Made by a program: the position numbers and the translations under genes | Shown: positions 1,153-27,680 of the stretch, piece by piece | How the letters are laid out: each line of letters starts with the position of its first letter | Position numbering within the stretch: position 1 is the stretch's first letter | From: Comamonas sp. lk | GTDB taxonomy: Bacteria; Pseudomonadota; Gammaproteobacteria; Burkholderiales; Burkholderiaceae_C | Reading direction: 5' to 3' | NCBI GenBank assembly: GCA_945860595.1 | Contig: CAMAQV010000002.1 | Coordinates: 61,346 to 125,345 of the forward strand | DNA length: 64,000 bases | Notes under the pieces: model-generated | The model's database searches: none | Told to the model about the DNA's origin: nothing | Seen by the model: only the letters and a program-made list of their open reading frames with translations

Positions 1153-2007
1153 ATGGGCAAGCAACACCACACTTTTGTATCCGAAACCATGCAATCAAAG
1201 GAGTTGCGCATGCTCGACGCAGCGGTCAAACGACTTCCCCGCTTTCTCCTGGATATCGCGCCTATCCAGCGCCTCATCAATGGCCCGAGCCGCCTGCGTT
1301 TGGTGGCCAAGCCGGAGGCGCCCGAACAGTTGGCACATGCGCGCGCGCTGCTGGCTCTGGGCACCAGCCAGTGGTCTGAGTTGGCGCATGCAGCCACAGA
1401 TAGCCAGGACGCGACCCTGAACCTGCTGCGCGCCTGGCGCGACCAGGGTCGCAGCTGGCCCGACATTTACCTGCGCGGGATCAGCCCCACGGCCCAGCTG
1501 ATGGGTGACTGGTGGGGCGCGGATCGCATGGACTTTGCCAGTATGTCGATGGCCATGGTGCGCCTTCAGACGGCGATGTATGCGCTGAGCCCGGAATTCA
1601 TGGCGGGCTCCCGCCCGGTTCAGGGTGCGCCCAGACGGCTTTTGTTGGCCAATGCCGCCTCGCAGCACAGCTTGGGCAGCTTGATGGTTGCTGAGTTTTT
1701 CCGGCTGGCGGGCTGGCGGGTCAAGGCGGTGCACGCGCCCAGCGCGCAGGAGCTGTCACTAGCGCTGCAGTCCGACTGGTTTGACGTGCTGGGCGTGGGT
1801 ATTTCCATGGAACAACAGGTGCCGCAGGTCCAGCAAGCCTTGTCCGGGGCCCGCCAGCGCAGCGCCAACCCGGGCATCAAAATCATGTTGGGTGGGTTCT
1901 TGATTCAGCAACGCCCCGATTTGGTGCACGTTTTGGGCGCCGATTTTTCCGCCGATGCGGCGGATGAAGCCGTGCAGTCAGCCGAACGCTGGCTTGCCAT
2001 GAATTGA
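1153..2007 (+). CDS. ppaA: AerR/PpaA-family cobalamin-binding (SCHIC-like) photosynthesis regulator
   Basis: B12-binding-like protein directly upstream of ppsR; contains ANAASQHSLGSLMVAEFFRLAGWRV. Start may be ATG 1189. Confidence 0.82.
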   Translation: MGKQHHTFVSETMQSKELRMLDAAVKRLPRFLLDIAPIQRLINGPSRLRLVAKPEAPEQLAHARALLALGTSQWSELAHAATDSQDATLNLLRAWRDQGRSWPDIYLRGISPTAQLMGDWWGADRMDFASMSMAMVRLQTAMYALSPEFMAGSRPVQGAPRRLLLANAASQHSLGSLMVAEFFRLAGWRVKAVHAPSAQELSLALQSDWFDVLGVGISMEQQVPQVQQALSGARQRSANPGIKIMLGGFLIQQRPDLVHVLGADFSADAADEAVQSAERWLAMN

Positions 2008-2059
2008 CCTCTGGGCGCTATGGCCTCCGTCAATCTGTCAACATTTTGTTTTTTAGCAG

Positions 2060-2077
2060 TGTATTTTTTAGTTGACA
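2060..2077. promoter_or_regulatory. PpsR/CrtJ operator upstream of ppsR
   Basis: TGT-ATTTTTTAGTTG-ACA, exact TGT-N12-ACA. Confidence 0.7.
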
Positions 2078-2120
2078 CTACGTTTACAATAAACCTAACA
2101 ATACAACCAGTTGGTCAGCA

Positions 2121-3539
2121 GTGTCCAGCCCCGCTTTCTTGATCACTTACATGAAACTGCCCCCGATCGACGCTCACACGCTCGCATCCCTGATCGGAGT
2201 GACTTCGGACTTGGCTCTGGTCATCGACAAAGACGGCGTGGTGCAAGACGTCTCGGTGAAAAAAGATGATTTGGCCAGCCTGGCCTGCCACAACTGGGTC
2301 GGGCAGGCATGGATTGACACGGTCGCGGTGGACAGCCGCGGCAAAGTGCAGGACATGTTGGCTTCCGCCTCGGATGGTGCCGATTTGCGTTGGCGCCATG
2401 TGAATCACCCCTCGCCTAAGGGCGTCGATGTCCCCGTGCAATACGCATTGGTCAAGTTTGAATCGGACGGGCGGTTTTTGGCGCTGGGACGCGACATGGA
2501 GGCCTTGGCGGCACTGCAGCGCCGCCTGGTGGAAACCCAGCAGGCCATGGAGCGCGATTACCAGCGCCTGCGGCACATCGAAACCCGTTACCGCATTCTG
2601 TTTGACACCTCGATTGAGGCGGTCATGCTGGTGGAGTCGAACACGCTGCGCGTCACCGAAGTCAACCTCAGCGCCCAGGCGCTGCTCAAAGATGCCACCA
2701 AGCGTCTGGTCGGCCGCGAGGTCATGGAAGCCTTTGAGCCCTCGAGCCGCGAAGACATCCAGGCCCTGATGCGTATGGCCTACGCCACCGGCCGGGTCGA
2801 AATGCGTAAGGCGCGTTTCAGTGGCGCAGTGGCCGAGTGCACCGTCACGGCCACAGTGTTCCGCCAGGAAAGCGGGGCCCAATTCTTAGTGCGCCTCTTA
2901 CCACAGGAGTCTGCCAACGAGCAGGGCGGACAAGGGGTTGCGGCTTTGTTGTCCCAGGCCATGGAGCGTGCGCCGGACGGATTTGTGCTGACCGACCGCA
3001 GCGGCTCTATCAAGGCGGTCAATGCCGAGTTCATGTCCATCGTTGGCGCGACCGCCAGTTCGCAGTTGAACGGCCAGGCGCTGGAGCAGTGGTTTGTGCG
3101 CGGCGGCATTGACTGGGGCGTGCTCAATACCAATTTGCGCCAGCAAACGTCGGTGAAAGACTTTGCTACCAACTTGCTGGGCTTCACCGGTACGGCCGTG
3201 GCAGTGGAAATTGCCGCCCTCACCCTGCAATCGACGGAGAGCGAAGTTTTTTACGCTTTTTATGTGCGCGACGTGACCCGGCGTCAATTGCCAGAAGTAC
3301 GGGAAAGCTCGGGCATGTCGGATTCGGTGGCCCAGCTTGCCCGCCTGGTGGGTCGGCTTCCCATGAAAGACATCGTGGGCGAGACGGTGGACATGATTGA
3401 GCGCATGTGTATCAAGTCGGCCCTGGACCTGACCCACAACAACCGCGCCTCTGCGGCTGAAATGCTGGGTTTGTCGCGCCAGAGTCTGTACGTCAAGCTG
3501 CGCCGCCATGGCATGGTGTCGGAAGGCGAAGCCGAGTAG
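2121..3539 (+). CDS. ppsR: Transcriptional regulator PpsR/CrtJ (PAS domains + Fis-type HTH)
   Basis: C-terminus CIKSALDLTHNNRASAAEMLGLSRQSLYVKLRRHGM is the PpsR HTH including the redox-active Cys; PAS repeats. GTG start at 2121 or ATG at 2151. Confidence 0.93.
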   Translation: MSSPAFLITYMKLPPIDAHTLASLIGVTSDLALVIDKDGVVQDVSVKKDDLASLACHNWVGQAWIDTVAVDSRGKVQDMLASASDGADLRWRHVNHPSPKGVDVPVQYALVKFESDGRFLALGRDMEALAALQRRLVETQQAMERDYQRLRHIETRYRILFDTSIEAVMLVESNTLRVTEVNLSAQALLKDATKRLVGREVMEAFEPSSREDIQALMRMAYATGRVEMRKARFSGAVAECTVTATVFRQESGAQFLVRLLPQESANEQGGQGVAALLSQAMERAPDGFVLTDRSGSIKAVNAEFMSIVGATASSQLNGQALEQWFVRGGIDWGVLNTNLRQQTSVKDFATNLLGFTGTAVAVEIAALTLQSTESEVFYAFYVRDVTRRQLPEVRESSGMSDSVAQLARLVGRLPMKDIVGETVDMIERMCIKSALDLTHNNRASAAEMLGLSRQSLYVKLRRHGMVSEGEAE

Positions 3540-3597
3540 GCCCCGGCCGGAAAAGTCCGGGAAAATCGCTGGCGGCTGTAAAAAACCCGCAAATAAG

Positions 3598-3615
3598 TGT
3601 CAATCCCTATTGACA
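3598..3615. promoter_or_regulatory. PpsR/CrtJ operator upstream of bchG
   Basis: TGT-CAATCCCTATTG-ACA, exact TGT-N12-ACA, 28 bp upstream of the ATG. Confidence 0.75.
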
Positions 3616-3643
3616 TTCCAAAGTGTCATGCAAAACTGCTTGC

Positions 3644-4543
3644 ATGGATTACCCCAAATTGTCCACTGTCGCGGAGTTGCTCAAGCCGATCACCTGGTTC
3701 CCTCCGGTATGGGCATTCGCCTGCGGAGCGGTGTCCTCCGGGCGGTCGCTGAGCGACAACTGGACGCTGGTACTCGCCGGTTTGATTTTGACTGGGCCGC
3801 TGGTCTGCGCCAGCAGCCAGGCGGTGAATGATTGGTTTGACCGGCACGTAGACGCCATCAACGAGCCGCAGCGTCCCATTCCCTCGGGGCGTATGCCGGG
3901 GCGTTGGGGTCTGTACATCGCGGTGCTATGGACCGTGCTGTCGCTCTTGTGGGCGCAGGCTTTGGGGCCTTGGGGCTTGTACGCCTGCGGTCTGGCCTTG
4001 CTCTTGTCCTGGGCCTACAGCGCGCCACCTTTGCGCTTGAAAAACGACGGTTGGCTGGGTAACGCGGCCTGCGCCTTGAGCTACGAGGGCCTGGCCTGGA
4101 TCACCGGCGCGGCTGTCATGGTGGGCGGCATGATGCCCGCCTCGCCGATTGTGGTGCTGGCCTTGCTGTACAGCCTGGGTGCCCACGGCATCATGACGCT
4201 CAATGATTTCAAAGCGGTGCAAGGCGATTCGCAAATGGGTGTGCGGTCGCTGCCAGTGCAACTGGGCGTGGTCGGCGCTGCCAAGGCCGCATGCCTGGTC
4301 ATGCTGGTGCCGCAAGTGTGGGTGGCCTTGTTGCTGTTGCACTGGGGCGCGCCTTCGCATGCGCTCGCAGTGCTGCTGCTGATGCTGGCGCAGCTGCCTT
4401 TGATGCTTCGATTTATCCAATCTCCGGTTGAAAAAGCGCTGTCGGTCAGTGCTTTTGGTGTCCCGCTCTTCGTGGCCGGGATGATGGTCAGCGCCTGGGC
4501 CTTGCGCCTGGGCTATGGGATGCCACAAGGGCTTGCAGCATGA
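3644..4543 (+). CDS. bchG: Bacteriochlorophyll a synthase (UbiA family)
   Basis: MDYPKLSTVAELLKPITWFPPVWAFACGAVSSG...NDWFDRHVDAINEPQRPIPSGRMPG. Confidence 0.95.
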   Translation: MDYPKLSTVAELLKPITWFPPVWAFACGAVSSGRSLSDNWTLVLAGLILTGPLVCASSQAVNDWFDRHVDAINEPQRPIPSGRMPGRWGLYIAVLWTVLSLLWAQALGPWGLYACGLALLLSWAYSAPPLRLKNDGWLGNAACALSYEGLAWITGAAVMVGGMMPASPIVVLALLYSLGAHGIMTLNDFKAVQGDSQMGVRSLPVQLGVVGAAKAACLVMLVPQVWVALLLLHWGAPSHALAVLLLMLAQLPLMLRFIQSPVEKALSVSAFGVPLFVAGMMVSAWALRLGYGMPQGLAA

Positions 4544-4625
4544 ACCGCGCGCCAGCCCTGCGCCGCCCTTTTTGTGTTCTTTGTGCCTGTATTCACCCCC
4601 CTCACCTTTGGCAAGGAGCCACACT

Positions 4626-5819
4626 ATGCAAACCCAAGAATATGATGTCGTAGTCGTCGGCGGCGGACCCGCTGGCGCAACCGCTGCCGATGACCTGGCG
4701 CAAGAAGGCCGCACCGTGTTGCTGCTGGACCGCCAGGGCCGCACGAAACCCTGCGGCGGCGCGATCCCGCCGCGCCTGATCAAAGACTTCCAGATCCCTG
4801 ACCACCTGCTGGTGGCCAAGGCGCGTTGCGCGCGCATGATTTCGCCCAAGGACAAAAAAGTCGATATCCCGATTGAAAACGGCTTTGTCGGCATGGTCAA
4901 CCGCGACGAGTTTGACGAATGGCTGCGCGCGCGGGCGCAGGCCAATGGCGCGCAGCGCGTGCGGGCTGTGTTTGACAAGATCACCGAAGACGCCGACGGC
5001 GTGGCCCGTGTGCACTACACGCCCGCCGGTAAAAACGAAGACCATGCACCGGTCAGCGTGCGTGCCCGCTATGTGATTGGTGCGGACGGTGCCAAGTCCG
5101 AGGTGGCGCGCCAGACCATCGAGGGCTACGAGAAAACCAAGTACGTGTTCGCGTACCACGAGATCGTCAAGGCTCCGCAAGGCGACGCCAGCCACGACCC
5201 GAACCGCTGCGACGTCTACTACAACGGTTTGCTCTCGCCTGATTTTTACGGCTGGGTTTTCCCCCACGGCGACACCATGAGCATCGGCACCGGCAGCGCC
5301 GACAAGGGCTATTCCCTGCGTTCCGCCGTGGGCCGCCTGCGTGAATTGGGTGGTCTGGCGCACCTCGAGACCCTGCGCCGCGAGGGTGCGCCGATCCCGC
5401 TCAAGCCGCTGCCGCGCTGGGAAAACGGCCGTAATGTGGTGCTTGCAGGTGACGCCGCTGGTGTGGTGGCCCCGGCATCGGGTGAAGGCATTTACTACGC
5501 CATGTTCGGTGGCCGTGTTGCCGCGCACGCGGTGAACCAGGCCATCATCCACAACAACCCGGCCATGTTGAAACAAGCCCGTAAGCAGTTCATGCGCTTG
5601 CATGGCAAAGTCTTTTGGGTGCTGGGTATATTGCAGTACTTCTGGTACCAGAATGACAAGCGGCGCGAGCGCTTCGTCAAAATCTGCGAAGACAAAGATG
5701 TGCAGCAACTGACCTTCGAGTCCTACATGAACAAAGAGCTGGTGCGCAAGAAACCCATGGCCCACGTGCGCATCTTCTTCAAAGACCTGGCGCATCTGTT
5801 CGGGATGGCCCGGGCTTGA
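4626..5819 (+). CDS. bchP: Geranylgeranyl (bacterio)chlorophyll reductase
   Basis: MQTQEYDVVVVGGGPAGATAADDLAQEGRTVLLLDRQGRTKPCGGAIPPRLIKDF; follows bchG. Confidence 0.95.
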   Translation: MQTQEYDVVVVGGGPAGATAADDLAQEGRTVLLLDRQGRTKPCGGAIPPRLIKDFQIPDHLLVAKARCARMISPKDKKVDIPIENGFVGMVNRDEFDEWLRARAQANGAQRVRAVFDKITEDADGVARVHYTPAGKNEDHAPVSVRARYVIGADGAKSEVARQTIEGYEKTKYVFAYHEIVKAPQGDASHDPNRCDVYYNGLLSPDFYGWVFPHGDTMSIGTGSADKGYSLRSAVGRLRELGGLAHLETLRREGAPIPLKPLPRWENGRNVVLAGDAAGVVAPASGEGIYYAMFGGRVAAHAVNQAIIHNNPAMLKQARKQFMRLHGKVFWVLGILQYFWYQNDKRRERFVKICEDKDVQQLTFESYMNKELVRKKPMAHVRIFFKDLAHLFGMARA

Positions 5820-6313
5820 TTTTTAAGGGGCCACGCCCGCCGCTGTGGCCCGGCCTGCCGCTGGCGTTCGCGCTCAGTTTGGGCGTCGCTGCGGTGGGCG
5901 GTTCGCTGACCGATATAGGGCCCTGGTACCTGGCCTTGCGCCAACCCGACTGGAAGCCGCCGGATATCGCCTTTGGCCCGATTTGGACCACGATTTTCAC
6001 GCTCTGCGCAGTCAGCGGCTGGCTCGCCTGGTATGCCGCAGTGAGCCGCTCGGAGCGCCGCGCCATAGTCAGCGTCTTTGCCTGTAATGCCGTGTGCAAC
6101 GTGCTGTGGAGTTACCTGTATTTCACCGTGCAGCGGCCCGACTGGGCTTTGCTGGAATGGATGGCTTTATGGCTGTCGGTGCTGGCCGTGGTGCGGGTCT
6201 TGCGCCGTATCGAGCCGGCGGCGGGCTGGATGAATCTGCCCTACCTCGTGTGGGTCAGCGCGGCCGGTCTTTTGAATCTGACCACGGTGCAGCTCAACGG
6301 CCCGTTTGGCTGA
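5816..6313 (+). CDS. tspO: TspO/MBR-family tryptophan-rich sensory protein
   Basis: Five-TM TspO pattern (WYLALRQPDWKPPDIAFGPIWTTIFTLCAVSGWLAW...NVLWSYLYF); ATGA overlap with bchP. Confidence 0.9.
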   Translation: MIFKGPRPPLWPGLPLAFALSLGVAAVGGSLTDIGPWYLALRQPDWKPPDIAFGPIWTTIFTLCAVSGWLAWYAAVSRSERRAIVSVFACNAVCNVLWSYLYFTVQRPDWALLEWMALWLSVLAVVRVLRRIEPAAGWMNLPYLVWVSAAGLLNLTTVQLNGPFG

Positions 6314-7208
6314 GCGATTCGAGCGCCCAGCTGCGGATGTAGTCGGCTACCAAAGCGGGTGCTTCTTCGTGCGCCAGATGGCCCAACTCGGGCACGGTGA
6401 TGCCGCGCGCGTGCGCCAGCACCGCGTAGGTGCGCCCGGACCAGCTGGTCGGAACGGTGGTGTCGCGACCGCCCAGATGCAGAAAAACCGGGCCGCGCAG
6501 CTCCGGCATACGCCGCCCCAGCGCGCCCATGTCCCATGCCGCCATCATGGCCAACACACCGCGTACATGCGCCGGTTGTCGAATCAGTCGCGCGTAATAG
6601 TCCACGCCCTGCGCGTTGAGCCGCGAACCGGTTTCGTCCACCAGCTTTTTGACCACCCCCGGGCGCTTTCCGTGGCGTGCAATCCACAGCGCAGACAGTG
6701 GATTGAGGGCCAGCACCTTGGCCGCTGCCGGGAACATCCAGCTGGCCATGCCGGGTATGGGCAGCCAGGCCGGATTCAGCCCGATCAGCGTGGGGCTGCG
6801 CGCTACCGTGTGGTTGTGGCGGTCCAGCACCCATTGCGCGGCCACCGCGCCCCCTGCGGAGTGGCCGACGACCACCTGGGGCTGCAGCCCCAGTGCGCGC
6901 AGCAAATCGTCCAAGGCGTCCGCCATCTCGCGCAGGCCTGGCCGCCAGCTGGGGGCGATGTGGCTGAGCGCGTGGCCTGGCAGGTCCGGGCAGACCACGG
7001 TGAAATCCGCGCTCAGTGTGGGCAACAAATCCCGCCAGGTATGGGTGGACGCGCCCGCACCGTGCAGCAGCAGCAGCACCGGCCCGCTGCCCGCAATCTG
7101 CACATGCCAGCGCACGCCCGGCGTTTGCACAAAGCGGCTGCAGTCCATATGCGGCCAGTCCGGGCCCAGATCAGCAGCTTGCAGCGGCGGGTACAGCCCA
7201 TCTAGCAC
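6294..7208 (-). CDS. bchO: Alpha/beta hydrolase BchO, putative magnesium chelatase accessory protein
   Basis: LLLLHGAGASTHTWRDLLPTLSADFTVVCPDLPGHALS...VVGHSAGGAVA; downstream of bchID. Confidence 0.9.
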   Translation of the reverse strand: MLDGLYPPLQAADLGPDWPHMDCSRFVQTPGVRWHVQIAGSGPVLLLLHGAGASTHTWRDLLPTLSADFTVVCPDLPGHALSHIAPSWRPGLREMADALDDLLRALGLQPQVVVGHSAGGAVAAQWVLDRHNHTVARSPTLIGLNPAWLPIPGMASWMFPAAAKVLALNPLSALWIARHGKRPGVVKKLVDETGSRLNAQGVDYYARLIRQPAHVRGVLAMMAAWDMGALGRRMPELRGPVFLHLGGRDTTVPTSWSGRTYAVLAHARGITVPELGHLAHEEAPALVADYIRSWALESLSQTGR

Positions 7209-7214
7209 CGTAGT

Positions 7215-9092
7215 TCAGCTCCGCAGGGTTTGCATGGCGGCAGCCATGCGTTGCGCCTGCACATAGGGCATAGGAAGGTACTGCGCGCCCATGGTGCGCG
7301 CCAGCGCCTGGGCCAGTGGTTCGGGTTTGGGCGCGGTATCAATCCACAGCGCCGCCCAGGGGCTCAGGGCCCAGCGTTGTGCCAGGGCCAGGGCGTCGGC
7401 ACCGGCCTGTGCGCGTCCACCCAGACCGGCCAAATCGATGTTGGCGCGCCCATCGCTGAGGACCACCAGGCTGGGCGTCATGCCCGCACGCTGCACCTGC
7501 ATGGCCTGCTCAAGACCGCGCTGCAGCGCCAGGGCCAGCGGTGTGCCGCCGCCGCCGGGTAAGCCCGCCAGTGCACGCTTGGCTCGCACCAGCGAGCGCG
7601 TGGGCGGCAGCAAAACCTCGGCCTTGGCGCCGCGAAAAGCCAGCACGCAGACACTGTCGCGCCGCGCGTAGGATTGTTGCAGGAGGATTTCCACCGCGCC
7701 CTTGGCCTCGGCCAGCCGCTCCAGCGCCGCCGAGCCCGAGGCGTCGATGGCGAATATCAGGCAGGAGGGGCTGCGCTGTTCAAAGCGTTGGATATGGAAG
7801 TCCTCGGGCCACAGGCTGATGCGATTGCGCGCAACGGCGGGGGAGCTAGCCGGCGTGCGGCGCAGTTTTTGTTTGGGCGCTGCCGCGCGCAGCGTGGCCA
7901 GCAGGTGCAGGCGCGCCCCGGCGTGGGGTTTGCCCGCGCGCGGGCTCAAGGGGCGGCCGCGCATCTTGTGTTTTTGTGCCTGTCCGCTGCTGCCGCTTTG
8001 GGCCGCGCGCACGCCTTTCAATGCGTTCTGGCGCTGCAGCAGCATGCGGTCCAGCAGGTGCGGCGGCAGGGCGGCTACGGCGGCGGCAATCAGCATCTCG
8101 GCGAGTTCCTGGTCGGACGGCATCTCAGGCTGCTCGGACTCGCCCTGTTCATCGGGTGGCGGTGGCGCAGGGGTGTCATCGTCCTGCGGCTCCTCCTGCG
8201 CAGGTGGCTCCTGGGGTGGTGGCGGTTCACTGTCGGTTGATTCGGGCGGCGGTTCCTGGGGTGCTGGTACGACGGTTGCGCGCGGGGCCAGCACCCAGCG
8301 TGCGGCCAACGCCAGGTCTTCCTGCGCCACGGCCTCGCGCTGGTTCAGCGCCGCATGTACGCGTGCCACCTGTACTGCCAGCAAAGGCGCGCGCAAACTG
8401 TCAATGCCCAGTGCCAGCGCGGCCTGGCACAGCGCGCCCACGTCCTGGTCCTGGACGCCGACTTTTTTCAGGTCGGATTGGGTGCGGGCCAGCTCCTCGG
8501 GGCTGAGCAGTTCCAGGGTGTTTAGGCTATCGAAGCGGCTGACTGTGTCCAGGCTGATCCAGACCCCCAGGCGCTCGGAAAGGGCCGGGGCCAGGCCTGG
8601 CTCGTCTTCGCCTGATTCGTCCAATGCCACGATGCCAAAGCGGCAGTCCTGCTCGCCCTGCCTGTGGCGGATGCGGCCACGCTCCAGCGTGTAGAGCATT
8701 TGCGCCGCTGTGCCCACGCTCAGGCGTTCGGCCATGGCCAGCGCGACGATGCCGCCGTGGGCCGTGGCCAGCACGCCGTCTTGCCACTGGAGTGCGCCAG
8801 TTTGCAGCGTATGGGTGAGATCGGTGCCGCCCAGCAGGCGTTCGGAGTCGATGTGGTGGGGTACTTTGACCAGTGGGCGTGGTCCTAAAGCGCGGGCCAA
8901 TTGCGCCAGCCAGGCTTCGCGCACCGGCCCATGCCCGGCGCGCAGCCAGACGCCGCCAAAACCGACCGGATCCACCTGTAGCGCCAGCAGCAGCAGCTGT
9001 GCGTCGCTCCAAATGGCCGATGGCGGCGCGTCCTGCTGCGCGTCACCGGCTGCGGGCGGGGTGAGAGTGCCGAGGTCCTGTGTCATGCGCAC
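7215..9092 (-). CDS. bchD: Magnesium chelatase subunit D
   Basis: AAA-like N-terminus, acidic/Pro-rich linker, C-terminal VWA/MIDAS domain (FAIDASGSAALERLAEAKGAVEILLQQSYARRDSVCVLAFRG). Confidence 0.95.
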   Translation of the reverse strand: MRMTQDLGTLTPPAAGDAQQDAPPSAIWSDAQLLLLALQVDPVGFGGVWLRAGHGPVREAWLAQLARALGPRPLVKVPHHIDSERLLGGTDLTHTLQTGALQWQDGVLATAHGGIVALAMAERLSVGTAAQMLYTLERGRIRHRQGEQDCRFGIVALDESGEDEPGLAPALSERLGVWISLDTVSRFDSLNTLELLSPEELARTQSDLKKVGVQDQDVGALCQAALALGIDSLRAPLLAVQVARVHAALNQREAVAQEDLALAARWVLAPRATVVPAPQEPPPESTDSEPPPPQEPPAQEEPQDDDTPAPPPPDEQGESEQPEMPSDQELAEMLIAAAVAALPPHLLDRMLLQRQNALKGVRAAQSGSSGQAQKHKMRGRPLSPRAGKPHAGARLHLLATLRAAAPKQKLRRTPASSPAVARNRISLWPEDFHIQRFEQRSPSCLIFAIDASGSAALERLAEAKGAVEILLQQSYARRDSVCVLAFRGAKAEVLLPPTRSLVRAKRALAGLPGGGGTPLALALQRGLEQAMQVQRAGMTPSLVVLSDGRANIDLAGLGGRAQAGADALALAQRWALSPWAALWIDTAPKPEPLAQALARTMGAQYLPMPYVQAQRMAAAMQTLRS

Positions 9093-9124
9093 CAGATGCC
9101 GGGTATGCCGGAAACAGGCCGGAT

Positions 9125-10207
9125 TCAGCCCTGCGCGGCCGCCGGGTGCGCCCCAGCGGCTCGCACGGCTTGGGCCGCATCGCTGCCCAGCACCTCGTCC
9201 ATGGCACGTTGCACCCGCACGCTGGAGCCGGTGTCGTCCAGCGGGTTGCGCCGCAGGCGGTGGCGCAGCACCATGGGCGCGATTTCGCGCAGATGCGCCA
9301 GCGTCACTTTTTTCGCGCCACGCAAGGCGGCCATGGCGCGGGTGGTGCGCAAGAGCGTGAGCTCAGCGCGCAGTCCGTCGGTGCCCAGTTTCTGGCAGAG
9401 CGCGGCGCACAGGTGCAGCAAGTCGTCGCCCACTTCCAGGCGGTTCAGCGCGCTGCGGGCTTTGAGAATGTTTTTGCGCAGTTTCTGGTTCTCGGCCTCC
9501 CACTCGGCGCGAAAACCGGCCGGGTCGCGTTCGAATGCATCGCGGCGCTTGATCACCTGCACGCGCAGGGCCAGGTCTTGCGGTGTGCGGACTTCCACGG
9601 ACAGGCCAAAACGGTCCAGCAACTGCGGGCGCAACTCGCCCTCTTCGGGGTTGCCGCTGCCCACCAGCACAAAGCGGGCGGGGTGGCGCACGCTCAGGCC
9701 CTCGCGCTCGACCAGGTTCTCACCGGAGGCGGCTACGTCAATCAGCAGGTCGACCAGATGGTCCTCCAGCAGATTGACCTCGTCGATGTACAAAAAGCCC
9801 CGGTTCGCCTGCGCCAGCAGGCCGGGCGCAAATTCCTTGACGCCCTGCGTCAGCGCTTTTTCCAGGTCGAGTGCGCCGACCACGCGGTCTTCGGTTGCGC
9901 CCAAAGGCAGATCGACCACCGGCACCGGGCGCTCCAGGGTTGGGAGTTTTTTGCCCGATGCCGCGCGCGCCGCCTGGCATTGCGCGCAGGGATTTTTGGC
10001 CAAGGGGTCGCAGCCATAGGGGCAGCCTTGCACGACTTGGATGGGCGGCAGCAAATCGGCCAGGGCCCGCACCGCAGTGGATTTGCCGGTACCCCGGTCT
10101 CCGAGCACCAGCACGCCGCCAATGCTGGGGTCGACGGCCACCACCTGGATCGCCAACGTCATTTCTTCCTGGCCAACAATGGCCGCAAAAGGGAAAGTCA
10201 ATGCCAT
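9125..10207 (-). CDS. bchI: Magnesium chelatase ATPase subunit I
   Basis: MALTFPFAAIVGQEEMTLAIQVVAVDPSIGGVLVLGDRGTGKSTAVRALADLLP. Confidence 0.96.
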   Translation of the reverse strand: MALTFPFAAIVGQEEMTLAIQVVAVDPSIGGVLVLGDRGTGKSTAVRALADLLPPIQVVQGCPYGCDPLAKNPCAQCQAARAASGKKLPTLERPVPVVDLPLGATEDRVVGALDLEKALTQGVKEFAPGLLAQANRGFLYIDEVNLLEDHLVDLLIDVAASGENLVEREGLSVRHPARFVLVGSGNPEEGELRPQLLDRFGLSVEVRTPQDLALRVQVIKRRDAFERDPAGFRAEWEAENQKLRKNILKARSALNRLEVGDDLLHLCAALCQKLGTDGLRAELTLLRTTRAMAALRGAKKVTLAHLREIAPMVLRHRLRRNPLDDTGSSVRVQRAMDEVLGSDAAQAVRAAGAHPAAAQG

Positions 10208-10252
10208 GCGGGTTCTCTCGTTTTCTCGGTTGAGGGCATCGGTGCAGTCGGT

Positions 10253-10858
10253 TCAGGCCGCCATGCCGGGAAGCGGAGCCACGCCAATCAGCCAGACGTG
10301 CACCACCAGAATAAAAGCCGCCCAGGCCACCGTGCCGGCTAGCACCGTGCCGATCGTGGCTGCGCCGGATACGGGCGGCGTCTCGGGTATGTCGCCGGCT
10401 TCAAGGGCTGCACGGTCGCGCTGGCGGGCGGCGCGAAAATTCAGCACCGCCCAGACCAGGAAGCCGCCAAACAGCAGCACATCGTGCAGCCTGCCGTTGG
10501 CCAGGATATGGGCCAGCGCCCAGACTTTGACGCCTAGCACCATGGGGTGGTGCAGGCGGGCTTTGATGGCGTTGCGCGGAATCTCGGCGGCCGCGAGCAG
10601 GACCATGGACACCCACATCAGCGCCACCGTGGCATGCGCCATACCGTGCGGCGGCGTCCAGAGCTGCACCGGCTCCAGCCGGGCCTGCCCGTAGCCCACG
10701 ATGAGCAGATAAAAACCCACGAGTGAAGCGATGGAATACACGCCCTTGAAACCCAAGGGACCCAAGCGCAGCAGCAGGGCACCGCGCAGGCCCTCACCCC
10801 AGACACGCAACGCGTGGACACCCAGAAAAATCACCAAACCCGCTATTAGCATGTCCAT
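10253..10858 (-). CDS. NnrU-family membrane protein (Z-ISO superfamily)
   Basis: MDMLIAGLVIFLGVHALRVWG...LWTPPHGMAHATVALMWVSMVLLAAAEIPRNAIKARLHHPMVLGVKVWALAHILANGRLHDVLLFGGFLVWAVLNFRA is the NnrU signature; located between bchC and bchI. Confidence 0.85.
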   Translation of the reverse strand: MDMLIAGLVIFLGVHALRVWGEGLRGALLLRLGPLGFKGVYSIASLVGFYLLIVGYGQARLEPVQLWTPPHGMAHATVALMWVSMVLLAAAEIPRNAIKARLHHPMVLGVKVWALAHILANGRLHDVLLFGGFLVWAVLNFRAARQRDRAALEAGDIPETPPVSGAATIGTVLAGTVAWAAFILVVHVWLIGVAPLPGMAA

Positions 10859-10892
10859 ATCAGCTCCCCGATTGGTGGCGGCAGCGTGGACA

Positions 10893-11864
10893 TCACGGCC
10901 GCCAGGCCAGCACCATTTTCAGGCAGTTCGGGTCGGTGAAGGCCGTGGTGTATGCGGCCTGGGCGTTTTCGGGGGTTTCGGTGTGGGTGATCAGCCCTTC
11001 CAGGTCGAGTTTCCCCTTCTGCACCAGTTCGGTGACCGCCAGCAGGTCGCCCGGCGACCACTGCGCCGCGATGCGGATGCGCGCTTCCCGCATAAAGGCC
11101 GGGGCGTAGGCAAAGCGCAGGTCTTCCTTGTAAAAGCCGGCCAGCACCACCTCGCCGCCCGCGCCGGGCTGCAAACGCCCGATCAGGGTGTTGAGCAGGC
11201 TGGCGTCGCCGCTGACGTCGTAGACGCCACGGTAGTTTTTGCGGCTGTCCTCGTCGGGGTGCACCACCGGGTAACCGTGCGTGCCGGCGCGCCGCGCCGC
11301 CTGCGTTTCCCAGACCGTGGGCGGCGGCAAATCCAGCGCCAGGTTCAGGCGCGCCAGTAAACGCCCCATAACGCCGTGGCCGATGATCAGGTCGGGTACG
11401 CCCAGGGGCAGGTCGTGGCGCCCGCCCGACATGGCGTGGTAGGCGGTGGCCGCCAATGCCAGCAGCACGCCGCGCGCGCCGATGCCGGCGGGCAGGCGCA
11501 CCGCGCGGCTGTCCGCCAGGACCAGACGCTCGGCCGAGCCGCCAAATACATTGGCTGCCTCTTTGAAGCTGTAGGACCCGGGAACAAAAACAGTCTCACC
11601 AATGTCCAGCTTGGCCTCTGCGCCCCGGCGCACCACCGTCCCCACCGACTCATAGCCCGGCACCAGCGGGTAGGACAGGCCGGGGAAGGGCGGCATGGTG
11701 CCGTCCCAGAGCAGGCGTTCGGTGCCGGTGCTAATGCCGCTGAAGGCCACCTCCACCTCCACGTCGGCAGGCCCCATCTCGGCGAGTTGCAGGCTTTGCA
11801 CCGCCAGCACCTGGGGGCTGACGAAGACGATGGCGCGGGCGTGTTGCGGGGCGACGGGTTGCAT
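10893..11864 (-). CDS. bchC: 3-hydroxyethyl bacteriochlorophyllide a dehydrogenase
   Basis: MQPVAPQHARAIVFVSPQVLAVQSLQLAEMGPADVEVEVAFSGISTGTERLLWDGTMPPFPGLSYPLVPGYESVG. Confidence 0.93.
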   Translation of the reverse strand: MQPVAPQHARAIVFVSPQVLAVQSLQLAEMGPADVEVEVAFSGISTGTERLLWDGTMPPFPGLSYPLVPGYESVGTVVRRGAEAKLDIGETVFVPGSYSFKEAANVFGGSAERLVLADSRAVRLPAGIGARGVLLALAATAYHAMSGGRHDLPLGVPDLIIGHGVMGRLLARLNLALDLPPPTVWETQAARRAGTHGYPVVHPDEDSRKNYRGVYDVSGDASLLNTLIGRLQPGAGGEVVLAGFYKEDLRFAYAPAFMREARIRIAAQWSPGDLLAVTELVQKGKLDLEGLITHTETPENAQAAYTTAFTDPNCLKMVLAWRP

Positions 11865-11987
11865 GGAGCGGGCCTTCGGTTGCGGGTGACACGGGTGCCG
11901 ACGCTGACAAGCCGGACGGCCCAGCGAAATATTTTTCGCTTAAATCCCACTTTTCGGGAAAAACCGCCTTGACTATCGTCAGATTCT

Positions 11988-12004
11988 TGTTACAGTAATT
12001 TACA
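11988..12004. promoter_or_regulatory. Degenerate PpsR-like half-site pair (TGT-N11-ACA)
   Basis: TGTTACAGTAATTTACA, 7 bp from the canonical site at 12012. Confidence 0.4.
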
Positions 12005-12011
12005 TCAAAAG

Positions 12012-12029
12012 TGTCAAGTAGGGTTGACA
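12012..12029. promoter_or_regulatory. PpsR/CrtJ operator between bchC and dxs
   Basis: TGT-CAAGTAGGGTTG-ACA, exact TGT-N12-ACA; ends 2 bp before the dxs ATG. Confidence 0.78.
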
Positions 12030-12031
12030 AC

Positions 12032-13936
12032 ATGGAAAATTTATTGACATCGATTCAGGGGCCTGCCGATCTTCGCCGCCTGCCGCGCTGGAAGCTGCCC
12101 GCATTGGCTGACGAATTGCGGGCCTTTTTGCTCGACAGCGTGTCCCAGACCGGGGGGCATCTCAGCTCCAATCTGGGCACCGTCGAGCTGACCGTGGCCT
12201 TGCACTACGTCTACAACACGCCGGACGACCGGCTGGTTTGGGATGTGGGCCACCAGACCTATCCGCACAAAATACTCACCGGGCGGCGCGAGCGCATGGC
12301 CACTTTGCGCCAGCAGGGCGGTTTGAGCGGCTTTCCGCGCCGCAGCGAGAGCGAGTTCGACACCTTTGGGACGGCGCATTCTTCCACCAGCATCTCCGCC
12401 GCCTTGGGTATGGCGCTGGGTGCGCAGCACCAGGGCTCAGACCGCCACGCGGTGGCCATCATCGGAGATGGCGCAATGACTGCCGGCATGGCCTACGAGG
12501 CCATGAACAACGCCGGCATCAGCAAGGCGCGCATGCTGGTGGTGCTCAATGACAACGACATGTCTATCAGCCCGCCCGTGGGTGCGCTCAACCGCTATTT
12601 GGGCAAGTTGCTCAGCGGCTCCTTCTATTCAGCCGTGCGCGAGACCGGCAAGGTGGTTTTGCAGGTGGCGCCACCCCTGCGCGAACTGGCCCGGCAGATT
12701 GAGGCCCAGGCGCGCCGCGCTGCGGGCTTCCCGACTATTTTTGAGGAACTGGGCTTCAACTATGTGGGTCCGGTCGATGGCCACGATATGGACGCGCTGG
12801 TCAACGCCTTGCACAAAGTACGCAACGCCAGCGGCCCGCAGTTCTTGCATGTGATCACCCAAAAAGGGCATGGCTACGCGCTGGCAGAGGCCGACCCCGT
12901 GGCTTACCACGGACCGGGCAAGTTTGATCCGGCAGTCGGTTTGAAACCCGCTACCGCCCCACAAAAGCCGACCTTCACCCATGTCTTTGGGCAGTGGCTG
13001 TGCGATATGGCGGCTTGCGACCCCAAGCTGGTGGCCATCACCCCGGCGATGCGCGAGGGATCGGGCATGGTCGAATTTGACCGCCGCTTCCCCGACCGGT
13101 TTTACGACGTCGGTATTGCCGAACAGCACGCGCTGACCTTTGCCGCCGGGCTGGCCTGCGAAGGCATGCGCCCCGTGGTGGCGATTTATTCCACCTTTTT
13201 GCAGCGCGCGTATGACCAGCTGATCCATGACGTGGCTTTGCAAAAGCTGCCCATGGTGCTGGCCCTGGACCGCGCTGGCATCGTCGGTGCCGACGGGGCC
13301 ACGCACGCCGGCGTTTTTGACATTCCCTTTCTGCGCTGCGTGCCCGATGTCAGCATCGCCTGCCCGGCCGACGAGAACGAGTGCCGCCAGCTGCTCAGCA
13401 CCGCCTACCAGCAAGACCACACGGTGGCGGTGCGCTACCCGCGCGGTGCGGGGGTCGGCGTGGCGGTGCAAACCGATTTGTCGCCCCTGCCTTTCGGTCA
13501 GGCTGAGCAGCGGCGCAGCGGAAAAACCATCGCCATCTTGGCCTTTGGCACCCTGCTGTACCCAGCGCTGGCAGCCGGTGAGGCGCTGGATGCCAGCGTG
13601 GTCAATCTGCGCTGGGCCAAGCCCCTGGATACCGGCATGCTGGCGCGTATGGCCGCTGAGCACACGGTCCTGGTCACGGTTGAAGAAGGCGCGCTGATGG
13701 GCGGAGCGGGATCGGCGGTGCTGGAATACCTGGCCGATGCCGGTCTGGCAATTCCAGTGCTGCGCCTGGGCATCAGCGACGCATTCACTGAGCATGGCGA
13801 ACCGGCCAAGCTACTGGCGCAAATGGGTTTGGATGCGGCCGGTATCGAGACCTCCATCCGCGCCCGGTTTGCCGATGTGCTGGAGCGTGCCCGCCACCCG
13901 GCGGTTTATGACGTCAGCAAACGGCGGGCGGCCTGA
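12032..13936 (+). CDS. dxs: 1-deoxy-D-xylulose-5-phosphate synthase
   Basis: DXS motifs: [89 protein letters not shown]. Confidence 0.96.
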
Positions 13937-13938
13937 AT

Positions 13939-15198
13939 ATGGCGGTTTGGGCCATCGGGCTGAACCACCACACCGCGCCGGTGGATGTGCGCGGGCGCTT
14001 CGCGTTCGCGCTGGACCAGATCGGCCATCAGCTAGACCAATTGCGCAGCGCAGTTAGCCCGCACCTGGAGGCAGCCATTCTCTCCACCTGTAACCGCACC
14101 GAGATGTATTGCTCGGGCGGCACCGAGCACATGCCGCAGACCCTGGACTGGCTGGCCCAAGCGGGTGGTGTGCAAGCCCAGGAACTGCGCGGATACAGCT
14201 ACAGCCACCAAGACGAGCATGCCGCGCGCCACGCTTTCCGGGTGGCCAGCGGGCTGAATTCCATGGTGCTGGGGGAGCCGCAAATTCTGGGGCAGATGAA
14301 AGACGCCGTGCGGGCAGCCTCAGACGCCGGCGCTTTAGGCACCACGCTCAACCAGCTCTTCCAGCGTTCTTTTTCGGTCGCCAAGGAGGTGCGCAGCGCC
14401 ACCGACATCGGCGCCCATTCCATCAGCATGGCTGCCGCAGCGGTGCGCCTGGCCGGACAATTGTTTGAAAACCTGGACCGCACCCGGATTTTGTTTGTCG
14501 GTGCAGGTGAGATGATCGAGCTATGCGCCACCCACTTCGCCGCCAAGAAGCCGCTCGCCATGGTGATCTCCAACCGCACCCGTACGCGCGGCGAACAGTT
14601 GGCCGCGCAGCACGGCGCGCAGGTGATGGGCCTGGCCGAGCTGCCCGACCGCTTGCACGAGTTCGACATTGTGGTGAGTTGCACTGCCAGCACCCTGCCC
14701 ATCATCGGTTTGGGCGCGGTGGAACGGGCGCTGAAAAAGCGCAAACGCCGGCCCATGTTTCTGGTCGACTTGGCAGTGCCGCGCGATATCGAGATGGAGG
14801 TCAAGTCGCTCAACGACGCCTACCTGTACACAGTGGACGACCTGGCCCACGTTGTCAAATCCGGGCAAGAGTTGCGCCACGCGGCGGTTGCCCAGGCGGA
14901 GTCCATCATCGACGGCGGTGTCAAGGCCTTTGCCCATTGGATGGAGCAGCGCCACACCGTGCCCTTGATCAAACAGGTGCAAGAGCAGACCGACCAATGG
15001 CGGCGTGCCGAACTGGCGCGCGCTCTGAAGCTGCTCGAGCGGGGCGAGGATGCTGCCACGGTACTGGAGACCATGTCGCGTGGTTTGACCCAAAAAATGC
15101 TGCATGGTGCACTGCACGAGTTACGCAGCGCCGAGACCGAGGCCCGTACCCAGGCCTGCGGCAGCGTTCAGCGCTTTTTTCTGGGCCGGCGGCGCTAG
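13939..15198 (+). CDS. hemA: Glutamyl-tRNA reductase
   Basis: AIGLNHHTAPVDVRGRFAF...LSTCNRTEMYC...GLNSMVLGEPQILGQMKDA. Confidence 0.95.
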   Translation: MAVWAIGLNHHTAPVDVRGRFAFALDQIGHQLDQLRSAVSPHLEAAILSTCNRTEMYCSGGTEHMPQTLDWLAQAGGVQAQELRGYSYSHQDEHAARHAFRVASGLNSMVLGEPQILGQMKDAVRAASDAGALGTTLNQLFQRSFSVAKEVRSATDIGAHSISMAAAAVRLAGQLFENLDRTRILFVGAGEMIELCATHFAAKKPLAMVISNRTRTRGEQLAAQHGAQVMGLAELPDRLHEFDIVVSCTASTLPIIGLGAVERALKKRKRRPMFLVDLAVPRDIEMEVKSLNDAYLYTVDDLAHVVKSGQELRHAAVAQAESIIDGGVKAFAHWMEQRHTVPLIKQVQEQTDQWRRAELARALKLLERGEDAATVLETMSRGLTQKMLHGALHELRSAETEARTQACGSVQRFFLGRRR

Positions 15199-25644: not shown

Positions 25645-25662
25645 CGTCATTTTTTATTGACA
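25645..25662. promoter_or_regulatory. PpsR operator 1 upstream of pucB (CGT-N12-ACA)
   Basis: CGT-CATTTTTTATTG-ACA; overlaps a -35-like TTGACA at 25657-25662. Confidence 0.65.
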
Positions 25663-25685
25663 CTTATGAATGTCACAAATAGACT
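25657..25685 (+). promoter_or_regulatory. Putative sigma-70-type puc promoter
   Basis: TTGACA (25657-25662) - 17 bp - TAGACT (25680-25685), flanked by PpsR-like sites. Confidence 0.6.
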
Positions 25686-25688
25686 ACA
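25671..25688. promoter_or_regulatory. PpsR operator 2 upstream of pucB
   Basis: TGT-CACAAATAGACT-ACA, exact TGT-N12-ACA, 8 bp after operator 1. Confidence 0.68.
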
Positions 25689-25779: not shown

Positions 25780-25926
25780 ATGTCAGATAGCGTAGGGCCA
25801 TCCGGCCTGACCGACGCCCAATCGGAAGAAATACACCGGCACCTGATTCAAGGCACGCAAATCTTCGGAATGATTGCTGCCTTGGCCCATTTGCTGGCGT
25901 ACATCTATTCCCCTTGGCTCAAGTAA
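25780..25926 (+). CDS. pucB: Light-harvesting LH2 beta polypeptide
   Basis: 48 aa MSDSVGPSGLTDAQSEEIHRHLIQGTQIFGMIAALAHLLAYIYSPWLK; LH beta pattern with H in EEIH and AHLLA. Not in the supplied ORF track. Confidence 0.93.
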   Translation: MSDSVGPSGLTDAQSEEIHRHLIQGTQIFGMIAALAHLLAYIYSPWLK

Positions 25927-25938
25927 AAGGAGAGCACC

Positions 25939-26130
25939 ATGATTTATGGAAAACTTTGGACTGTGGTTAAACCTACGGTTGGGATTCCCATCTTCATCGC
26001 TGCTGTTGCCATTGCATCGTTCTCGGTGCACTTGGCACTCACGCTGAATACCACGTGGGTAAAGGCCTTTCTCAATGGCAAGGCAGCAACGGCGGCAGTT
26101 GTTGTTCAAATGCCGATTGATTCGGCCTGA
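25939..26130 (+). CDS. pucA: Light-harvesting LH2 alpha polypeptide
   Basis: 63 aa MIYGKLWTVVKPTVGIPIFIAAVAIASFSVHLALTLNTTWVKAFLNGKAATAAVVVQMPIDSA; WTVV-P-GIP and His31. Confidence 0.93.
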   Translation: MIYGKLWTVVKPTVGIPIFIAAVAIASFSVHLALTLNTTWVKAFLNGKAATAAVVVQMPIDSA

Positions 26131-26162
26131 TAGACGTCAACTTCGGTTTATGTCTTACGTCG

Positions 26163-26193
26163 TGGACCGGGAACCTGTTCCCGGTCCATTTTT
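26163..26193 (+). terminator. Strong stem-loop between pucA and pucC (attenuator or mRNA-stability hairpin)
   Basis: TGGACCGGGAA-CCTG-TTCCCGGTCCA (11 bp stem) then TTTTTC; immediately upstream of pucC ATG. Confidence 0.7.
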
Positions 26194-26196
26194 CGT

Positions 26197-27597
26197 ATGA
26201 CTAGCTTCACGCACGACGCGCCCGAGACGCCGCAACAGCCCTGGTGGGTGCGCTTGCTGCCCTTTTCGGATGTGGCGTCCAAAGATTTGCCATTGGGCCG
26301 CCTGATGCGGCTGGCCCTGTTCCAGGTTTCGGTCGGTATGGCTTTGGTGCTGCTGATTGGCACCCTCAACCGCGTGATGATTGTCGAGTTGAAGGTGCCG
26401 GCATCCCTGGTGGCGGTCATGGTCGCTATGCCGCTCATTTTTGCCCCTTTTCGCGCGGTGATCGGATACCGCTCCGACAAGCATGTGTCGGCCATCGGCT
26501 GGCGGCGGGTTCCTTATATTTGGATGGGCAGCCTGATTCAGTTCGGTGGGTTGGCCGTTATGCCTTTCGCTTTGTTGGTGTTGGCGGGTGCCGGCCAGTC
26601 GGCGAGCGTTCCGGGCTGGGTCGGACAAGTGGCCGTCGCGCTGGCCTTTTTGTTGGTTGGTGCCGGTTTGCACACCACCCAGACCGTGGGTCTGGCGCTG
26701 GCCACCGACCTGGCTCCGGTCGAAGACCAGCCCAAAGTGGTGGGTCTGATGTACGTGATGCTGCTCGCCGGTATGGTCTTCAGTGCCCTGCTGTTTGGCT
26801 ACCTGTTGCGCGACTTCAGCCCGGGCGCACTGATTCGGGTGATCCAAGGCGCTGCGGTGTTCACCATGGTGCTCAATGGCATTGCGGTATGGAAGCAGGA
26901 AACCATTGCCGCGCCCCGCGCGGCCGCAGTACAGACCGATCAGGATTTCGTGCAGGCCTGGAGCCGTTTCACGAAGGGCGAGAGCGCCAAGCGGCGTCTG
27001 ATCGCAGTGGGCCTGGGGACCATGGCGTTTACCATGGAAGATGTGCTGCTGGAGCCGTTCGGGGGCGAGATCCTGAATTTGACAGTGGGCGTCACCACCG
27101 CATTAACCGCCACGCTGGCCCTGGGTGGCTTGGCTGGGTTCGCATGGGCGTCGCGCGTGCTCAGCCAGGGCTTTGATCCATTTCGCATGGCGATGTGGGG
27201 AACCTTTGTCGGTGTACCGGCTTTCTTGTTGGTCATCGGTTCGGGGCTTACCGGTACCGTGTGGATGTTTGTTTTTGGGACCCTGCTGATCGGTTTCGGC
27301 GCCGGCATTTTTGGCCACGGCACCTTGACGGCAACCATGAATCTCGCCCCCAAAGACCAAGCCGGTCTGGCCCTGGGCGCGTGGGGCGCCGTGCAGGCCA
27401 CCGCTGCGGGCGTCGCGGTAGCCTGGGGCGGTATCATGCGCGATCTTGTGGCCCATGTGACCAACTCAGCTACCGGGTACCTGTCGGTGTACGTGCTGGA
27501 AGTCGTTCTGCTGCTGATCACGATGGTGGCTATGGTTCCCCTGTTACGTTCCCGCCCCGCAGCCAACCCTGCCTTTTTTCAAGGAGAGTCCTCATGA
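26197..27597 (+). CDS. pucC: PucC/LhaA-family MFS protein (LH assembly / BChl delivery)
   Basis: PucC-like: LFQVSVGMALVLLIGTLNRVMIVELKVPASLVAVMVAMPLIFAPFRAVIGYRSDKHVSAIGWRRVPYIWMGSLIQFGG. Confidence 0.92.
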   Translation: MTSFTHDAPETPQQPWWVRLLPFSDVASKDLPLGRLMRLALFQVSVGMALVLLIGTLNRVMIVELKVPASLVAVMVAMPLIFAPFRAVIGYRSDKHVSAIGWRRVPYIWMGSLIQFGGLAVMPFALLVLAGAGQSASVPGWVGQVAVALAFLLVGAGLHTTQTVGLALATDLAPVEDQPKVVGLMYVMLLAGMVFSALLFGYLLRDFSPGALIRVIQGAAVFTMVLNGIAVWKQETIAAPRAAAVQTDQDFVQAWSRFTKGESAKRRLIAVGLGTMAFTMEDVLLEPFGGEILNLTVGVTTALTATLALGGLAGFAWASRVLSQGFDPFRMAMWGTFVGVPAFLLVIGSGLTGTVWMFVFGTLLIGFGAGIFGHGTLTATMNLAPKDQAGLALGAWGAVQATAAGVAVAWGGIMRDLVAHVTNSATGYLSVYVLEVVLLLITMVAMVPLLRSRPAANPAFFQGESS

Positions 27598-27680
27598 AAG
27601 TTCACCATATTCTGTTGATCTTGTGGTTTCTGGCCCTGTTTTTCATGTTGGCTAACTGGTTCAACAAACCGAAGAAGTAA
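27594..27680 (+). CDS. 28-aa single-TM microprotein downstream of pucC
   Basis: MKVHHILLILWFLALFFMLANWFNKPKK; SD-like AAGGAGAG; ATG overlaps pucC stop as ATGA. Confidence 0.75.
   Translation: MKVHHILLILWFLALFFMLANWFNKPKK

Follow-up and report, generated by a model that had tools for sequence, protein, structure and literature searches.

The position of the LH2 ring band depends on hydrogen bonds to the C3-acetyl groups of its bacteriochlorophylls (BChls): two bonds give about 850 nm, one about 825 nm and none about 803 nm (PMC9618040). LH3, at 820 nm, has one such bond, donated by alpha-Tyr41, and PucD-LH2 of Rhodopseudomonas palustris is the zero-bond case at 803 nm (PMC9618040). In Rba. 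sphaeroides, Ser27 bonds the C13 keto group, and a double mutant that has lost both Tyr but retains Ser27 absorbs at 826 nm (PMC9618040), which we took as an upper bound for the window antenna. The signature of LH4 is alpha Met26, Phe44 and Met45, and such residue rules can fail, as in two Rps. palustris strains that have an LH3-type alpha gene and no clear 820-nm peak (PMC5069747). For Limnohabitans planktonicus, a peripheral antenna at 799 and 813 nm and an LH1 at 865 nm are listed in table 2 of PMC12654162, which cites Kasalicky 2018 and leaves the measured strain unnamed in that entry. There is also a solved LH2 named B-800/814, PDB 9lt4.

The window, i.e., the whole stretch of 64,000 nucleotides of Comamonas sp. 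lk DNA analysed here, carries a puc operon, the features of which are given in Table 1. Photosynthesis genes lie at 1153-15195 of the window and comprise a B12-binding/SCHIC-like regulator, a PpsR-like regulator, bchG, bchP-like and bchD-like genes, dxs and hemA. The puc operon follows about 10 kb past hemA, with helicase-like and flavoprotein genes in between. The L and M reaction-centre (RC) genes were found after pufBA on contig C2 (38.9-40.6 kb). With these genes in the genome and the photosynthesis genes in the first 15 kb of the window, the locus is therefore an ordinary antenna operon of a phototroph. The genome (2.8 Mb, 99% complete) contained one pufBA and one pucBA; a search for further pucBA copies, as the original prediction had proposed, returned only that of the window, and no plasmid copy of the window pucA was found.

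Table 1. Positions of the puc operon features and of the residues discussed in the text.
Feature	Position in window	Strand	Basis
Sigma-70-like promoter of the puc operon, TTGACA-17-TAGACT	25657..25685	+	Consensus scan, 10/12 matches; pattern only
PpsR/CrtJ-type site TGTCACAAATAGACTACA over the -10 element	25671..25688	+	TGT-N12-ACA pattern; position kept in relatives
pucB, LH2 beta apoprotein, 48 aa	25780..25926	+	ORF, PF00556; His37 (25888-25890) is the ring-BChl ligand
PucB Gln27, beta Gln(-10), replacing B800-bonding Arg(-10)	25858..25860	+	Sequence
pucA, LH2 alpha apoprotein, 63 aa, MIYGKLWTVVKPTVGIPIFIAAVAIASFSVHLALTLNTTWVKAFLNGKAATAAVVVQMPIDSA	25939..26130	+	ORF translation, alignment, Pfam
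PucA Val41, at the position of the hydrogen-bonding Tyr41 of LH3	26059..26061	+	Sequence; 99/99 Phe44-Leu45 loci
PucA Phe44-Leu45, without C3-acetyl hydrogen-bond donor	26068..26073	+	Sequence; 99/115 loci
12-bp G+C-rich hairpin and T run in the pucA/pucC gap, probable terminator or attenuator	26162..26189	+	
pucC, LH2 assembly factor, PUCC family, 466 aa	26197..27597	+	PF03209, E 9e-149
28-aa single-helix membrane microprotein MKVHHILLILWFLALFFMLANWFNKPKK	27594..27680	+	Shine-Dalgarno AAGGAG; ATGA overlap with the pucC stop

PucB and PucA both scored over the cut-off of the Pfam family PF00556 (LHC). PucA aligned with the solved nonameric LH2 alpha chains, including LH3 (1ijd), from residues 2-4 onward. 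Because this alignment was gapless, the residue numbering is correct and residues 44-45 are the acetyl-contact pair. Numbered from Met1, Phe44 is encoded by TTT (26068-26070) and Leu45 by CTC (26071-26073), while His31 lies at 26029-26031 and Trp40 at 26056-26058; positions 26 and 27 are Ala and Ser. The sequence and the alignment thus agreed with the original placing of Phe44-Leu45 at 26068-26073 within pucA (25939-26130). As in nonameric LH2, the paired beta and alpha PF00556 apoproteins have the BChl-ligand histidines (alpha His31 and beta His37), and a short alpha N-terminus begins at the B800-binding Met1. The product of pucBA would be the single peripheral antenna of the organism, a nonameric-type LH2 with presumably ordinary BChl ligands: alpha-His31, beta-His37 and, for B800, alpha-Met1.

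A second ring round RC-LH1 as in Gemmatimonas phototrophica, in place of separate LH2 rings, has been suggested for Limnohabitans (PMC12654162). The band positions are alike (the tabulated 813 nm vs 816-819 nm), and a betaproteobacterial origin has been proposed for the Gemmatimonas photosynthesis cluster (PMC12654162). We nevertheless consider this arrangement highly improbable for the window, where PucA has an N-terminus of nonameric-LH2 length and had E-values of 1e-16 to 1e-7 with nonameric LH2 alpha chains, whereas the alpha chain of the Gemmatimonas 7o0u series gave no match to PucA at E 0.01 and reached E 0.013 for an MNQ-type relative (alpha N-terminus Met-Asn-Gln).

In Rhodoblastus acidophilus 7050, LH3 (B800-820) is a light-regulated alternative to LH2. 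Its nonameric-type alpha chain (PDB 1ijd) is among the solved matches of PucA and likewise lacks donors at residues 44 and 45; from this Phe44-Leu45 pair the original prediction had derived an antenna near 820 nm used in low-light adaptation. Rhodoferax antarcticus, also with a single puc operon and no donors at 44/45, has an LH3 at 819 nm (PMC5374385). The Rbl. acidophilus LH3 differs from the window antenna in its beta Arg(-10) and its alpha-Tyr41, the source of its remaining bond (PMC9618040), in place of which the window has Val41. Furthermore, the window genome has a single puc operon and not an alternative to an LH2 operon, and the nearest measured relative is listed at 813 nm. Against these points, we judge it unlikely that the complex is a true LH3 that absorbs at about 820 nm and serves as a low-light form. 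The comparison with Rhodoferax relatives was fair in kind but imprecise, the pair in Rfx. antarcticus being Phe44-Phe45 (PMC5374385). As for low-light exchange, the sole pucBA of the genome is not a low-light alternative, since there is no B850 partner with which it could be exchanged, and its promoter is covered by a PpsR-type site.

The TGT-N12-ACA pattern of that site occurred 10 times in the window against 9.9 expected, which is chance level by count; sites at 2060, 3598 and 12012 lie near ppsR, bchG and dxs, respectively. The puc site was found at the same place in the relatives L028-L033, L039 and L047, where in most cases another such site precedes it by 26 bp. No such site was present in the 200 bases upstream of pucB in four Limnohabitans-type loci (L051, L057, L076, and L095). 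From the pattern and its position, the operon would be controlled by oxygen or light via PpsR, not by an LH2-to-LH3 switch.

The top solved match of PucA was PucD-LH2 of Rps. palustris (PDB 7ze3), with the common motif TTWV..F[L/M]NGKAA. Both chains have Val41 and Phe44 and no C3-acetyl bonds, and complexes of this zero-bond type have their band near 800 nm (PMC9618040), so that the ring band might fuse with B800 into a single peak at about 803 nm. The LH4 signature residues Met26 and Met45 (PMC5069747) are Ala26 and Leu45 in the window, however, and Ser27 stands in place of the Val27 of PucD. The Rps. palustris complex further differs by its beta Arg(-10), a gamma ribbon polypeptide, a single 803-nm band and its origin from one among several puc operons. 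In addition, two peaks are tabulated for L. planktonicus, which has the same residues as the window. An LH4- or PucD-like antenna is therefore a very unlikely reading, though slightly less so than the second ring round RC-LH1.

By its Val41, Phe44 and Leu45, the window PucA sorts with the zero-bond case, and reasoning from the residues would put the ring band at 803-826 nm; a bond from Ser27 to the C13 keto group, if formed here, could draw it toward 826 nm. We estimated about 813 nm, and not 820 nm, because L. planktonicus is the nearest measured relative. Its strain II-D5 (L076) came from the same scan of 84,980 genomes as the other relatives. Its PucA core agrees with that of the window in 40 of 47 residues, and both loci have Val41-Phe44-Leu45-Ser27, beta Gln(-10) and the gene order pucBAC followed by the microprotein. 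The seven alpha-core changes are conservative, while PucC differs, and the puc genes of L. planktonicus lie inside the photosynthesis gene cluster (PMC12654162), unlike those of the window with their distance of about 10 kb from hemA. By this analogy, the window antenna is a variant LH2 of the kind known spectrally from Limnohabitans, as far as the tabulated bands describe it, and should absorb at about 813 nm.

In the mechanism we propose, Phe44 and Leu45 would take away the side chains that keep the C3-acetyl groups of the ring BChls in plane, and Val41 the bond that replaces them in LH3. This would raise the site energies of the ring BChls and thereby shift their band from about 850 nm to about 813 nm, with 805-826 nm as the plausible range. 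A normal band at about 800 nm would stand beside it, and the energy would be passed to LH1 near 865 nm. A single nonameric-type LH2 without C3-acetyl bonds, with a band at about 813 nm and with the microprotein of its operon, is in our view the likely overall explanation. Of the original prediction, the blue shift of B850 thus held, with the donors Tyr44 and Trp45 both absent and L. planktonicus, with the same residues, listed at 799/813 nm. The inference of 820 nm from an LH3-like Phe44-Leu45 was too specific, as LH3 has the Tyr41 bond and the window Val41, and the low-light exchange was not sustained. The antenna colour exemplifies a known tuning by hydrogen bonds and, according to the table cited above, has already been measured in the nearest relative.

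The B800 site of the window antenna is also altered. The Arg(-10) of Rba. sphaeroides, which bonds the B800 acetyl group, has been termed conserved in all LH2; with Leu, Glu or Phe in its place, B800 moves to 783-789 nm and the site becomes less specific for BChl a, while Met retains 800 nm (PMC6358721). In PucB, Gln27 occupies this position, ten residues before the ring His37. Gln was found at beta(-10) in all 105 scorable MIY-type loci (alpha N-terminus Met-Ile-Tyr) and Arg in all three MNQ-type loci. The LH2 of Phs. molischianum is likewise not known to have Arg at beta(-10), and we therefore treated this residue as common but not defining and still filed the window antenna as LH2. Gln is a possible hydrogen-bond donor, and the 799 nm tabulated for L. 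planktonicus indicates, by analogy, that it probably acts as one. The beta Gln(-10) family thus offers a natural experiment on the B800 site.

Downstream of pucC, the operon encodes the microprotein. A homologue was present in 107 of the 109 MIY-type loci with enough sequence, the two exceptions being Tyr-Trp loci. The homologues are mostly 26-43 aa long and mostly start no more than about 50 nt from the pucC stop. When 399 genomes of the order were searched with a profile, 19 matches were obtained; for 17 of these the locus also has a PucC gene, and the match lies directly downstream of it where the ORF was scored. Among 401 genomes of the family, the microprotein was found in 17 of 23 with PucA and 1 of 378 without (Fisher p 5e-24). 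That sole match in a PucA-less genome was weak and lay within a 685-aa frame; the six PucA genomes lacking the microprotein were four of the MNQ-type Arg(-10) group and two with Tyr-Trp. For the 12 further phototrophs in the genus of the window, the numbers were 3 of 4 with PucA and 0 of 8 without, and in the one PucA genome that lacked it, pucA is located about 410 bases from a contig end. A search of 369 genomes of the class returned one weak match beyond the own genome (E 4e-4, 82-aa frame). The microprotein tracks LH2 genes, not photosynthesis in general; a general photosynthesis protein was rejected on its absence from the eight RC-positive, PucA-less genomes of the genus. We are highly confident that the gene is genuine and linked to LH2.

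It could instead be a partner of PucC, or a chance or leader ORF, and no component of LH2. The microprotein directly follows pucC in most loci, with the ATGA overlap in the window, which would fit such a reading. In six loci, however, it stands directly after pucBA and no pucC was detected within the available locus DNA. It closes the operon, and what follows is mostly convergent and not related from one locus to another, which excludes a leader. The pN/pS ratio of 0.08-0.28 in four groups, a sign of purifying selection, together with a position kept amid changing neighbours, ruled out a chance ORF. A split piece of PucC was also rejected, since the window PucC spans 399 of the 401 Pfam positions. 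Taken as a whole, we regard this set of alternatives as possible but the less likely one. We lean instead toward a previously undescribed LH2 subunit or LH2-specific assembly factor of the betaproteobacterial Gln(-10) LH2 family, a role suggested by gene context.

The last eight residues of the microprotein usually carry a charge of +3 or +4, which suggests a cytoplasmic C-terminus. Neither a Pfam or NCBIfam family nor a related PDB chain was found for the window sequence, in a test whose power is limited by the 28 residues. Single members gave scattered weak Pfam or NCBIfam matches, the best at E 6e-4 to DUF3262. A literature search for the microprotein found no paper. The LH2 gamma of Rps. 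palustris, the LH1 gamma of Blastochloris and PufX are likewise small and are extra polypeptides of antenna complexes; the microprotein has no sequence similarity to any solved chain, within the same limit of 28 residues. The LH2 gamma is a ribbon on the membrane surface, confined to Rhodopseudomonas (PMC9618040). The window antenna would represent the standard of a large freshwater Burkholderiales LH2 family, in which beta Gln(-10) is combined with a dedicated single-helix protein of 26-43 aa that ends the operon and most likely acts as an LH2 subunit or LH2-specific assembly factor. For these abundant lake bacteria, the microprotein is a candidate for an LH2 component that has been overlooked, and one open to testing.

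The residue pair 44-45 was compared across 115 loci (80 and 34 from other genomes, and the window; some are near-duplicates). Phe-Leu occurred in 99, Tyr-Tyr in seven, Phe-Phe, Tyr-Trp, Tyr-His and Tyr-Leu in two each, and Phe-Val in one. Phe-Leu is the family norm, a default of freshwater Burkholderiales phototrophs, and not specific to the strain. It is not a chance occurrence, being kept in 99 of the 115 loci and there invariant alongside Val41 and Ser27; Met1-Ile2-Tyr3 was also invariant across these 99. Since about a hundred freshwater loci fix the no-bond state together with Val41, the rule that Phe-Leu means 820 nm should give way to a joint reading of residues 41, 44, 45 and 27.

On the PucC tree (102 rows), Phe-Leu corresponded to 3-7 changes. 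Val41 accompanied Leu45 in all 101 Leu45 loci of the 115-locus set and never occurred with another residue 45, from which a coupling of the two is suggested. Independent evolution of this coupling was not upheld: supported branches held three independent pairs, too few for significance, and a later genome of the same genus, outside the set, had Leu41 with Tyr-Leu. In the genus g105, adjoining lineages of the PucC tree have Phe-Phe (L112 and L113) beside Tyr-Tyr (L117 and L119), and these donor-free and donor-bearing sister PucA chains suggest recent switches of antenna colour.

Two 2.0-Mb genomes (L157 and L158) have Tyr44-His45 with Ile41, a pair of which we know no earlier description. The Tyr-Trp loci L120 and L123 are the only MIY-type loci with pucC yet without the microprotein, and are unique among MIY-type loci in having Ala27 for Ser27. 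Phototrophy is patchy in the genus of the window: reaction-centre genes were present in 13 of 41 genomes and PucA in 4 of the 12 others of these, and LH2 is frequently missing from its RC-positive relatives. Finally, puc operons of the Comamonadaceae type were found in three metagenome bins that bear the names Rickettsia typhi, Bordetella parapertussis and Akkermansia muciniphila (L034, L038, and L053, respectively), names that look wrong.
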